64,000 nucleotides of DNA from Specibacter cremeus. GTDB lineage: Bacteria > Actinomycetota > Actinomycetes > Actinomycetales > Micrococcaceae. Position numbers and translations under genes: made by a program. This document shows, piece by piece, positions 11,808 through 16,352 of the stretch. The first letter of the stretch is position 1; every line of letters starts with the position of its first letter. Below the pieces are notes generated by a model. The model was not told the DNA's origin and ran no database searches. It worked only from the letters and a program-made list of their open reading frames with translations. The stretch lies in NCBI RefSeq assembly GCF_003946885.1, contig NZ_RWKQ01000012.1, forward strand, positions 1 to 64,000. Direction: 5' to 3'.

Positions 11808-12047
11808 TCAGATCACCGGCGGGACGGGTGGCATGAACGGATCAGGTGGATAGGGGGTCGGACGGTGCGGGTCCGGCGGACGGCTGGGGTCTGGTGGCTC
11901 GGTCGGATCCGGCGGACGGCTGGGGTCTGGTGGCTCGGTCGGGTCCGGCGGACGATGGGGGCCGGGTGGGAACGGGTCGGGTGCCGGAGGCTGCGTGGGG
12001 TCCGGCGGCAGCGGCGGCTGGCCCGGGAGGGTTGGTTGGTCGTTCAT
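11808..12047 (-). CDS. proline-rich repeat protein (predicted)
   Basis: 79 residues, about 40% proline, built from PPDPTEPPDPSR units. The underlying DNA has a 36-base tandem repeat (11881-11916 and 11917-11952, 35 of 36 identical). The ATG at 12047 has a weak GAAAGG upstream. A longer open frame runs on the other strand through the same repeats, so the coding strand is not certain; the minus strand is favoured by the ATG and position behind the zinc-ribbon gene. No family recognised. Confidence 0.4.
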   Translation of the reverse strand: MNDQPTLPGQPPLPPDPTQPPAPDPFPPGPHRPPDPTEPPDPSRPPDPTEPPDPSRPPDPHRPTPYPPDPFMPPVPPVI

Positions 12048-12088: not shown

Positions 12089-12481
12089 CTAGTTTGGCAC
12101 GGCGAGCCGGAAGCCGCAGCGGCAGCGCAGGATGCGTGTAGGCACGGTGACGTCCGGCAGGCCGCGGTAGATGTCCCGGCCGGCATCCTGCATGGGTTCC
12201 CCGCAGTGGATGTAGTCGTGGCCGAAGCGCAGCACGGATGGTGCCGTGCCGTCGTCACCGAGGATCTTGGCCACTTGGCAGACGGCGGCGGGGTGGGCAT
12301 AGTAGCCGTCGCATTCCGAGCAGGTGTATTCAACGTCTACGAGATCACGTTGCGACGGTGACAAGGGCCCGATGGATTCGACGACCAGATGCTCGTCCGT
12401 GTGACAGTACTCGCACCAAGGCCGTCGCCCTGAAGGTGCGGAAACCGAAGTGGGCGCTATTGCTAGGGGTGTGGTCGACAT
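12089..12481 (-). CDS. zinc-ribbon-like protein
   Basis: 130 residues. Cys pairs occur as WCEYCHT, YTCSECDGYY, a Cys in HPAAVCQVA, HCGEP and LRCRCGF, enough to bind two zinc ions. The middle holds VLRFGHDYIHCGEPM. AAAGGA precedes the chosen ATG; the longer frame starts without a site. This looks like a conserved Micrococcaceae hypothetical protein. A nucleic-acid or regulatory role is only inferred from the zinc-binding pattern. Confidence 0.65.
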   Translation of the reverse strand: MSTTPLAIAPTSVSAPSGRRPWCEYCHTDEHLVVESIGPLSPSQRDLVDVEYTCSECDGYYAHPAAVCQVAKILGDDGTAPSVLRFGHDYIHCGEPMQDAGRDIYRGLPDVTVPTRILRCRCGFRLAVPN

Positions 12482-12659
12482 GACAATCCTTTCGACGGCG
12501 AACGGTAAGTGCCGCTGCGCTCCCTTGCGCAAATTCTGTCGTGGATGAGGACCCGGGCGAATTCGCCGTCAACGCGGACTGCCCAGGACAGTCATGGCGT
12601 CTTGCCAAGCGATTGAAGGGGAACCCGGGGGTCCTGATCCCTGCCATTTGCTTAGGCAG

Positions 12660-12825: not shown

Positions 12826-12944
12826 CGAAGTCGCTTGTGGTGGGCCGTTGGTGTCATTTTCTGGGTCCTGACGGTGTCGACCGTGGGTCCCGCCGAATTG
12901 TCCTCGCGCTCTCGGTTGCCATGGTCGTCTCTGCCACGCCGTGA
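12826..12944 (+). pseudogene. remnant of mnhE (Mrp antiporter subunit E)
   Basis: Two short pieces in different frames resemble subunit E: a first-helix piece (WWAVGVIFWVLTVSTVGPAE, ending near 12900) and IVLALSVAMVVSATP from 12897 to a stop at 12942-12944. A whole subunit E is about 150-200 residues, so most is missing. The second piece ends in TGA overlapping the GTG of mnhF, the coupling expected for an E-F junction. Identification rests on position and these fragments, so it is moderate only. Confidence 0.45.
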
Positions 12945-13228
12945 ACGTGTGGATGGTCGGCGTCGTGGTGTTGCTTGTCGCCGGCCTGGGGCCGGCGCTG
13001 TACCTTGTCTCGCGCGGCAGCAGCGTGAACCGCCTGGTCGGGCTGCAACTCGCGGGCGTGGTCGGGGTGCTCGTGCTGATCGCACTACCCGAGGCCGTCG
13101 GGCAGCCGATCTATCTCATGGTGCCGCTGGTGCTGGCGGTCTTGACGGCCACCGGGACGCTCGTGTTCACGCGGATGCTGCGGCGGGATCGCGATGTCGG
13201 CGGCCCGACCGGGGGCGAACATGACTGA
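12941..13228 (+). CDS. mnhF: Mrp-type cation/proton antiporter subunit F
   Basis: 95 residues with three membrane helices (VWMVGVVVLLVAGLGPALYL; LVGLQLAGVVGVLVLIAL; LMVPLVLAVLTATGTLVFT), the size and layout of MnhF/MrpF. The family works in a multi-subunit membrane complex exchanging Na+ or K+ for protons. GTG start overlapping the upstream remnant stop; its own stop overlaps the ATG of the mnhG remnant. The gene appears intact although its neighbours on both sides are not. Confidence 0.8.
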   Translation: MNVWMVGVVVLLVAGLGPALYLVSRGSSVNRLVGLQLAGVVGVLVLIALPEAVGQPIYLMVPLVLAVLTATGTLVFTRMLRRDRDVGGPTGGEHD

Positions 13229-13402
13229 TGCCGTCATCGTCGTCGTCCTCGCCCTGGCCGGCGTCCTGTTCCTGGTCGCGGTCGGTGCCTGGTCGTGGCG
13301 ACGGGCCTGATCGTCACCGCGTCCGGACCGGTGCTATCCATGGCCGTCGGCCGGGTCATCGAGCAGGAACTGCGCGCCGATGCGGGGGAGGGTCCCGAAT
13401 GA
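13221..13402 (+). pseudogene. remnant of mnhG (Mrp antiporter subunit G)
   Basis: The ATG frame gives one helix (MTDAVIVVVLALAGVLFLVA) and stops after 29 residues at 13308-13310. Another frame from about 13289 gives LVVATGLIVTASGPVLSMAV and runs to a TGA at 13400-13402. The first matches the start and the second the end of subunit G (typically 100-130 residues), so the middle helix and family core are missing and the frame is broken. Start and stop still overlap mnhF and the next gene in the normal ATGA way. Confidence 0.6.
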
Positions 13403-13559
13403 GCATCCTGATAGCGGTGGCGCTCACGCTCGTGCTGGCGGGCGCCGTCGTCGTCGTCTTCACCCCCACCCCTCACGGCAAGCCGTCGTCCCGCTGATCG
13501 TGATGCTCACGGTCAGGAAGATTGACAGCCATCGTGAGGCGAAGCGGAGGCGGCGTTGA
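13399..13559 (+). pseudogene. remnant of DUF4040 (mbhD-like) subunit
   Basis: The ATG frame reads MSILIAVALTLVLAGAVVVV then FTPTPHGKPSSR and stops. A second frame reads VVPLIVMLTVRKIDSHREAK to a TGA at 13557-13559. These match the first helix and the last segment of DUF4040 proteins, which carry a longer hydrophobic core between them. The join lies at a GCCGTCGTC run that could encode the A-V-V found at both ends, suggesting deletion between short repeats plus a one-base shift. The normal overlap with the next gene (TTGA) is kept. Confidence 0.6.
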
Positions 13560-13709
13560 CCCGGCGGGCCCGGTATGTGGTGCTCGCCCTGGGCATCGTC
13601 TTCGTGGGCGCGGCCATGGGATGGGCGTCCGTACTCATGCCGGGCTTCGGCGGCTCGCGGCATCCATACCGCGACTTGGCGGCCGCCGCCGCACTGAAGC
13701 ACGGCGGCC
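13556..13709 (+). pseudogene. remnant of mbhE-like subunit
   Basis: A TTG-started frame gives about 51 residues (MTRRARYVVLALGIVFVGAA, then SVLMPGFGGSRHPYRDLA and LKHGG) matching the N-terminus of the membrane-bound hydrogenase subunit E-like protein found in actinobacterial Mrp operons. The family continues with VNF...DTLGEE and helices, none of which is present; instead the mnhB start follows directly in another frame. The frame stays open only by chance through mnhB. I take the gene to have lost its C-terminal part. Confidence 0.6.
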
Positions 13710-14171
13710 ATGCTCGACACCACCCGGATGCTGGTGGTCGTCGCGGTTCCGCTCACCCTGGTGCTCGGCGTCGATGTGGTGGCGCACGGGGCCATCACCC
13801 CCGGCGGCGGATTCCAAGGCGGCGTCGTCTTGGCCACGGCGTTGCACCTGCTGTACGTCGGCGGCCACTACCAGGATTTTTCGCGGCTGCGACCGTTGGG
13901 CCTCTTCGAGCAGGCGGAGGCCATCGGGGTGTTCTCCTACGCGGTCGTCGGCGCGGTCGGGCTTGCGCTCGGCGGCGCCTGGCTGGCGAACGTGGTGCCG
14001 CAGGGGACGCTCACCCAGCTCGTGTCCGCCGGCACGGTCGTGCTGCTCAACGGGGCCGTCGGGCTGGCCGTGGCCGGCAGCGTGGTGGTCCTGCTCTCCC
14101 ATTTCCTGGAGCAACGATTCCTCAGCCTGCCCGCTCCACTGCAAAAGCACGACGACGGGGAGTCGCCATGA
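13710..14171 (+). CDS. mnhB: Mrp-type cation/proton antiporter subunit B
   Basis: 153 residues, about four helices. The N-terminal MLDTTRMLVVVAVPLTLVLG and the hallmark HGAITPGGGFQGGVVLATAL identify the MnhB domain. The complex exchanges cations for protons. It appears whole, ending FLEQRFLSLPAPLQKHDD. Its ATG lies directly at the broken mbhE-like remnant and its stop overlaps mnhC by 4 bases. Confidence 0.85.
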   Translation: MLDTTRMLVVVAVPLTLVLGVDVVAHGAITPGGGFQGGVVLATALHLLYVGGHYQDFSRLRPLGLFEQAEAIGVFSYAVVGAVGLALGGAWLANVVPQGTLTQLVSAGTVVLLNGAVGLAVAGSVVVLLSHFLEQRFLSLPAPLQKHDDGESP

Positions 14172-14515
14172 CGCTCTACCCTTACCTGGTCGCCGGTGCG
14201 GTCTTGCTGCTGGGGATCATCGGAATCGCCCGCAGCCGCAACCTGGTGCACGCGGTCGTCTGCCTGGCCGTCGCGCAATCGGCCACGTACGTGCTGCTCC
14301 TGGCCGTCGGCTACCAGCGCGGCGCCACCGCGCCGATCTTCCAGTCGCCAACGGCGCGGGCGGCAACGATGGTCGACCCCGTCGTCCAGGCCCTGACGTT
14401 GACGGACATCGTGGTGTCGGCGACCGTGACGTCGATGCTGCTGGCACTGGCGATCCAGATCGCCAAGCGGCACGCCTCGGTGGATCCGGACGAGTTGCGT
14501 TCCTTGCGGGGTTGA
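14168..14515 (+). CDS. mnhC: Mrp-type cation/proton antiporter subunit C
   Basis: 115 residues, three helices, related to Nuo[33 protein letters not shown] and the conserved [20 protein letters not shown] identify MnhC. It appears complete. ATGA overlap with mnhB, and one base before the GTG of mnhD, so the three are translationally linked. Confidence 0.88.
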
Positions 14516-14516
14516 G

Positions 14517-16352
14517 GTGACCACCGCCGGTCTCGCCGCCGTGCTGCTGCCGGCCGTCGTCGTCGTACCCATCATGGCGGCCTGCCTGCTCCTGAGCCTG
14601 GGTCGCTGGCTGGACCGCCCGACGGTGGACGTCATCGCCGTGGCCACCGCCGTTGCGGTGAGCGCCGCCGACGGCGTGCTGCTGGCCGCCTCCGCGAACC
14701 AGCGCCTGGTCGCGTGGCTGGGCGGTTGGACACCGCACCGGGGGACCGGCGTCGGCATCGTGCTGGTGGGCGACCAGGTCGGCATCGGCGCTGCCCTGGT
14801 GGCCGGGGTGCTGATGAGTTGCGCACTGACGTTCTCATGGCGCTACTTCGAGGACATCCACACACATTTCCATGCGCTCATGATGCTGTTTCTGGCCGGT
14901 ATGACCGGATTCGCGCTCAGCGGCGACGTGTTCAACATGTTCGTCTTCTTCGAACTCATGGGTGTCGCGGCCTACGCGCTCACGGCCACGAAGATCGAGG
15001 ACCCGACCGCCGTCCACGGCGCACTGACCTTCGGCGTCATCAACTCCCTGGGCGCCTACGTCTCCCTCATGGGCATCGGGATGCTGTACGCCGCCACCGG
15101 GCAGCTGAACCTGGCGATGCTCTCGCAGGCGCTCACCGCGCACGGACAGGACCCCCTGGCGGTGATCGGGTTCGCCCTGACCGCCACCGGATTCCTCGTC
15201 AAGGGTGCCGTGGCACCGTTCCACTTTTGGCTCGACGATGCACACGCCGTCGCACCGACCCCCGTCTGCGTCTTGTTCTCCGGCATCATGGTCGAATTGG
15301 GCATCTACGGCGTGGCCCGGCTGTATTGGGTCGGATTCAGCGGCACACTCGAGGCAGGGAGCATACAACGGCTGTTCCTGGTCCTGGGCGTCGGCACCGC
15401 TGCCGTCGGCGGGGTCATGTGCCTGCTGCAACGCCATCTCAAGCGCCTGCTGGCGTACTCGACGATCGCGCACACGGGACTGTTCCTTGTGGCGCTCGGA
15501 TCCCTGGACCCGGTCGCCACCGGCGGGATCGTCGTCTACGTTCTCGGGCACGCGGCGGTGAAGTCCACGCTGTTCCTCTCCGCCGGGATCATCCTCAACA
15601 GATACGGCAGCGTCGACGAATTCTCACTGCGCGGCAAGGGACGGGACGCCCGACTGGTCGGCGCGGTCTTCCTGCTGGCCGGACTCGCCCTCGCGGGGCT
15701 TCCCCCCTTCGCCGTGGGACTGGGCAAGGTGGTCGGGGAGGAAGGGCTGGTCCAGTCAGGCATCGGCTGGGGGCCGATCCTGTTCTTGGTGGTCTCGGCC
15801 GTCACGGGCGGGGCGGTGCTGCGGGCAGGGGCCCGGATCTTCCTTGGATTAGGCGGGGGGCCGGGTACGGAAGAATCGGAGGCCATGAGCGGGGACAAGG
15901 AAATGCGGGAGTTGGCCACCGGGACGACGCGTCTGCCGGCCATGATGGGGGTCCCGTTGGTCGGGCTCCTCGCGGCCGGTGCGGCCGTTGGCCTGATGCC
16001 GGGAATTGGGTCGCAGGCCGTTTTCGCCGCAGAGCGGTTCGTCGACCGCGGCGGTTATGTGGCCGCGGTCCTGGGCGACTCCACTGGGTATGCGTCCGTT
16101 TCGATGCGGAATGCAGGGTGGAGTACCGAGGGCGTGGTGCTGTGTCTCGCGTCGGTGGCCGGCGCACTGGTGGTGGCCGGGATCGGGCTCTACGCAACCG
16201 CTCTTGCGCAGCCTGTGAAAACCGTGGTGCGCCCGCTGCGACCCGTGCTGCATGGCTTGCGCGGCCTCCATTCGGGTCACATCGGCGACTATGCCGCCTG
16301 GCTGTTGCTCGGCGTCGGCGGTGTGATCGCTCTGGTGATTATTCCGGTCTGA
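14517..16352 (+). CDS. mnhD: Mrp-type cation/proton antiporter subunit D (proton-conducting membrane subunit)
   Basis: 611 residues with about 14 helices, of the NuoM/NuoN proton-translocating family. Key parts are [19 protein letters not shown] (conserved Glu), a Lys in [20 protein letters not shown], and [20 protein letters not shown], all expected of the ion-translocating core. The C-terminal extension after about residue 480 is normal for actinobacterial members. GTG start one base after the mnhC stop. The subunit looks functional in sequence, but its partners E, G and the mbhD/mbhE-like subunits are broken, so the complex may not assemble. Confidence 0.88.

Follow-up and report, generated by a model that had tools for sequence, protein, structure and literature searches.

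Probable recent inactivation of a group-3 Mrp antiporter operon by internal deletions in an Arthrobacter-like genome

Introduction

Counterparts of the operon considered here have been described in Pyrococcus. The stand-alone group-3 Mrp of Pyrococcus furiosus (mrpEFGBB'CD) has no mrpA, and MrpD is its sole proton-channel subunit (PMC8415708). The membrane module of the Pyrococcus MBH complex, MbhA B C D E F G H, corresponds to the series E F G MbhD MbhE B C D (PMC7419157), while MbsE of P. furiosus fuses MbhE and MbhF (PMC8415708).

We examined an operon with this layout in a window of 64,000 nucleotides taken from contig 4 of an Arthrobacter-like draft genome (4.31 Mb in 98 contigs). Its subunit set and order match those of the P. 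furiosus Mrp (PMC8415708). However, the P. furiosus complex is intact and its deletion phenotypes have been studied, whereas the E, G, MbhD and MbhE parts of the window operon are broken. Fusion partners differ as well: MbhE is joined to MnhB in the relatives of the window operon, an arrangement comparable to MbsE, whereas its partner in the P. furiosus Mrp is MbhD and the subunits of MBH are separate.

Operon Identity and Relatives

Pfam searches and the list of open reading frames revealed homologues of mrpD, mrpC, mrpB and mrpF in the window and no mrpA, as expected of group-3 descent. In place of whole mrpE, mrpG, MbhD and MbhE genes, the window holds just out-of-frame remnants, none of which matched a Pfam domain of its own (Table 1). 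Judged by gene content, the stretch from 12.83 to 16.35 kb is a stand-alone group-3 Mrp operon with the order E-F-G-MbhD-MbhE-B-C-D and without mrpA. Among the reading frames read, no hydrogenase genes were recognised adjoining it. Upstream on the reverse strand, a whole gene for a small cysteine-containing protein (12089-12532) has only about 60 bp aligning in the nearest relative (L032 4767-4825), as if deleted there, and a further reverse-strand frame (11808-12047) encodes a proline-rich repeat (PPDPTEPPDPSRPPDP).

Table 1. Features of the broken operon; missing lengths are in coordinates of the intact locus of Arthrobacter sp. SDTb3-6 (L032; genome G010).
Feature	Position	Strand	Evidence
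mnhE (mrpE), N-terminal remnant, LWWAVGVIFWVLTVSTVGPAEL	12835..12900	+	matches L032 MrpE CWWGAGVLLWILTVSTVGAAEL
mnhE, second remnant SVAMVVSATP, then stop, other frame	12912..12944	+	L032 AAAVLVSATP signature
mnhF (mrpF), whole, 95 aa	12941..13228	+	PF04066 E=8.5e-7; 66% identical to L032
mnhG (mrpG), N-terminal remnant	13221..13289	+	alignment to L032
mnhG, C-terminal remnant with stop, different frame	13292..13402	+	about 115 bp absent before remnant
mbhD-like (DUF4040), N-terminal remnant	13399..13467	+	alignment to L032
mbhD-like, C-terminal remnant with stop, different frame	13482..13559	+	about 98 bp absent; GCCGTCGTC at join
mbhE-like, N-terminal remnant	13556..13696	+	about 149 bp absent after remnant
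mnhB (mrpB), whole, detached from the relatives' MbhE-MnhB fusion	13710..14171	+	PF04039 E=1.6e-20
mnhC (mrpC), whole	14168..14515	+	PF00420 E=9e-17; pN/pS 0.14 to L032
mnhD (mrpD), whole, 611 aa	14517..16352	+	PF00361 E=4e-52; 74% identical to G010

The nearest orthologous operon is that of Arthrobacter sp. SDTb3-6 (MnhD identity 74%), with full-length mnhE, mnhF, mnhG and mbhD followed by an MbhE-MnhB fusion and then by C and D. A search of the genus and family for nearer relatives returned this genome alone at 74%, the runner-up standing at 61%. The distribution is sparse, with a match at E <= 1e-100 in 2 of 23 genus genomes and in 15 of 395 family genomes. A plasmid origin was considered and rejected, as the plasmids searched gave no close match, and a genome-wide search for a second copy of the operon remnants found none.

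The orthologous operons of Arthrobacter sp. SDTb3-6, Sinomonas, Paenarthrobacter and Pseudonocardia (MnhD about 51-74% identical) share the gene order of the window but differ in having full-length genes, with MbhE and MnhB in a single frame. Each of the 17 nearest loci has nearly full-length E, MbhD, MbhE and B, and 16 of them have a nearly full-length G; in every one of the 26 group-3 operons checked (L034-L059), MbhE and MnhB share a single open frame. Alignment to the Mrp operons of relatives, which an earlier note on this DNA had proposed, thus established full-length genes in the relatives and loss in the window. The same note had raised the case of relatives sharing the short frames, and such relatives did not appear among the 17 loci. 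The short frames might otherwise be taken for ordinary small genes belonging to a variant form of Mrp, and their boundaries and overlaps do look tidy. Yet none of the 17 loci carries E, MbhD or MbhE in shortened form, and the pieces lie out of frame and lack Pfam domains; this reading is refuted as far as the available relatives reach, and we give it almost no credence.

Lesions in the Front Half of the Operon

Lesions were defined by direct DNA alignment of the window with the intact SDTb3-6 operon. Besides the losses in mnhG, mbhD and mbhE listed in Table 1, mnhE lacks about 250 and 95 bp, the size and breakpoint of the first gap being uncertain because the alignment is weakest in this gene and its second piece was recognised by the SATP signature. 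In total we count about five large gaps, two of them in mnhE, with 1-4 bp of extra length change beside several joins; mnhF, mnhB, mnhC and mnhD are free of lesions. Distances between halves are 77 bp (E), 71 bp (G) and 83 bp (MbhD), with 154 bp from MbhE to B, all out of frame. The locus has the character of a pseudogene cluster, with orthologues full-length in relatives and frame-breaking lesions in the window. The earlier description of four gutted genes with pieces out of frame, alongside whole F, B, C and D, agrees with this alignment; its count of four lesions in 900 bases holds for broken genes, while the number of gaps rises to about five. The mbhE frame itself extends from 13556 to 14515, crossing mnhB in the wrong frame and reaching mnhC in the right one, as a 319 aa reading frame that is probably a chance product of GC-rich DNA.

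The four start/stop overlaps that had been reported as kept are all present: GTGA at 12941, ATGACTGA at 13221, ATGA at 13399 and TTGA at 13556. When deletions of the same sizes were placed at random, no gene start was crossed in 5% of trials, and F was spared in 5% of trials. The repeat run previously noticed at one join is confirmed as GCCGTCGTC at the MbhD join, and a second short repeat, CCGCCATGG, lies at both edges of the lost G segment in L032. Of the three causes that the earlier note had offered, deletion between short repeats is therefore plausible, given repeats at two joins; a working subcomplex is disfavoured, and an assembly error is possible.

A reduced but working subcomplex would have F, B, C and D under selection and E, G, MbhD and MbhE shed, with the second Mrp operon of the genome perhaps supplying subunits. 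The retained overlaps, the whole F amid broken genes and the lack of relaxation in F, B, C and D described below would fit such a complex. In solved structures, however, the Na+ path and its link to C/D are built from the C-terminal part of MrpA (MbhD/MbhE), G and E (PMC7419157), and subunits are generally all required, a Bacillus MrpABCD subcomplex being inactive and MrpE being reported as dispensable in B. subtilis (PMC5703873); the window operon fails to encode the full set. MnhB, moreover, no longer has its translation start provided by the fusion to MbhE. It must start at ATG 13710, upstream of which we looked for a ribosome-binding site and found none evident. The second operon likewise lacks MbhE, and its MnhD shares only 32% identity with that of the window. 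A subcomplex is disfavoured because MnhB is fused to MbhE in all relatives checked, a ribosome site is not evident and all subunits are generally needed; a functional complex lacking MbhD, MbhE and G is not expected, and we consider this explanation improbable.

Constraint and Age of the Lesions

Between the window and SDTb3-6, pN/pS was 0.34 for the remnants, against 0.38 for F, 0.28 for B, 0.14 for C and 0.28 for D. With a value inside the 0.14-0.38 range of the whole genes, the remnants by this measure bear the mark of past constraint. Amino-acid change in the remnants exceeded that of their SDTb3-6 counterparts by 0.033 (CI 0.002-0.065; 16 outgroups, edges trimmed), whereas the excess was near zero for each of F, B, C and D (remnants versus whole genes, permutation p=0.012). 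Lineage-unique changes in the remnants were equal, 7 versus 6. Because the remnants combine a pN/pS of 0.34 with a small excess and equal lineage-unique changes, the lesions are, on these substitution patterns, recent relative to the split between the window and SDTb3-6, and any relaxed constraint would have been brief at most.

A Second Mrp Operon Lacking MbhE

The genome carries another Mrp operon on contig 39 (L033), which we chose for examination because it is Mrp. This is a housekeeping group-2 operon, mrpA with B and then C, D, E, F and G. Compared with genomes G002 and G017, its mrpA lacks about 356-390 bp, comprising the MbhE domain and linker, around L033 3482-3520; the gap changes the frame and contains no N, and the other subunits of the operon look whole. 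The same mrpA segment is present in 22 of 22 other genus genomes, and a search of the entire genome for PF20501 (MbhE) gave zero matches. The second operon thus resembles the window operon in that MbhE-coding DNA is gone without an N, but differs in having a single gap, in mrpA. Read from its sequence, the other Mrp operon is thus independently broken, leaving no MbhE domain anywhere in the genome, a finding new to this analysis. Because both operons have lost MbhE, selection on Mrp function as a whole may have been relaxed or reversed in the strain, as the parallel suggests. A more elaborate version, in which selection against ion exchange by Mrp removed MbhE from both operons in parallel and left partial complexes, with the freed MnhB and the MnhC/MnhD channel pair persisting in a new role, strikes us as highly improbable.

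Assembly Quality and the Origin of the Lesions

An assembly artefact would mean that the genome is intact at this locus and that sequences not adjacent in it were joined during assembly or gap closing, at a cost of 95-250 bp per join. The draft does contain many single Ns with broken genes at them. Two lipA copies (contig 5, 19375-20117, L207; contig 23, 101891-102738, L206) are each interrupted by four single Ns; most of these joins lack sequence, the shortfall against a relative reaching about 83 bp. The hutU gene for urocanate hydratase (contig 2, L115) is split at two single Ns, at 14837 and 15834, with codons apparently missing. Since the lipA copies and hutU are short at N joins, this draft is capable of losing coding DNA. 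The window lesions are also nearly all length changes with little added substitution, as joining faults would leave them. The breaks in lipA likely reflect assembly collapse of a duplicated gene; as direct proof of the same artefact in the window they were rejected, since their joins are N-marked and the gene is duplicated. (The SDTb3-6 and G004 genomes have no lipA match above the family cut-off.) A literature search on single-N scaffold joins yielded nothing usable.

None of the signs of an artefact that we looked for (an N, extreme GC, a genomic repeat copy) occurs at the window joins. The region has a GC content of 69%, the window average, and the window contains zero N, which supports a real loss; GC dropout was rejected, as the region is not GC-extreme. 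The earlier suggestion of an assembly error in very GC-rich DNA thus gains from the losses elsewhere in the assembly and loses from the ordinary GC and absence of N here.

Elsewhere, comparison of 93 conserved genes with a complete relative found no broken gene and no unmarked lesion. Alignment of about 150 kb of DNA to a complete relative gave two sharp in-gene deletions: an N-marked join on contig 16 (L128, 865-869), about 126 bp short of G002 inside a long conserved gene, and contig 39 mrpA, the only unmarked one. A coding-frame scan for unmarked lesions returned mostly antisense false hits and sets no bound for membrane genes, for which it is insensitive, because it missed the known mrpA lesion. 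Ten apparent split genes in a first protein comparison were discarded as mainly shadow reading frames and upstream extensions. Together with the slight amino-acid excess of the remnants, the rarity of unmarked deletions and the N-free window joins speak against an artefact, which we regard as possible but considerably less probable than a genuine loss. Because both Mrp operons are damaged and almost no other unmarked break was found, loss of Mrp function in the strain would explain the double damage more easily than random assembly faults.

We therefore favour a genuine event: this group-3 Mrp Na+(K+)/H+ antiporter operon was probably inactivated recently, when its front half suffered several internal deletions, and the pump is most likely dead as a result. 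As the reading frames stand, mnhE, mnhG, mbhD and mbhE are broken. Slippage or illegitimate joining between short repeats probably produced the deletions, whether one after another or together in a single complex event. The genes mnhF, mnhB, mnhC and mnhD are most likely still whole because too little time has passed. A complex without MbhD/MbhE (the MrpA C-terminal part), MrpG and MrpE is predicted not to work. Several observations weigh against this reading: five large gaps fall within 900 bp whereas B, C and D, over 2.6 kb, have none, an odd distribution for neutral decay; the assembly drops short segments elsewhere; the amino-acid excess in the remnants is small, with lineage-unique changes equal; and the evidence comes from one strain.

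Implications

If the lesions are an artefact, they warn that this draft can lose coding DNA without a gap mark. If they are real, this strain would live without a complete Mrp antiporter, while every other genus genome examined retains the MbhE domain, and it would offer a natural experiment on the conditions under which Mrp can be dispensed with.
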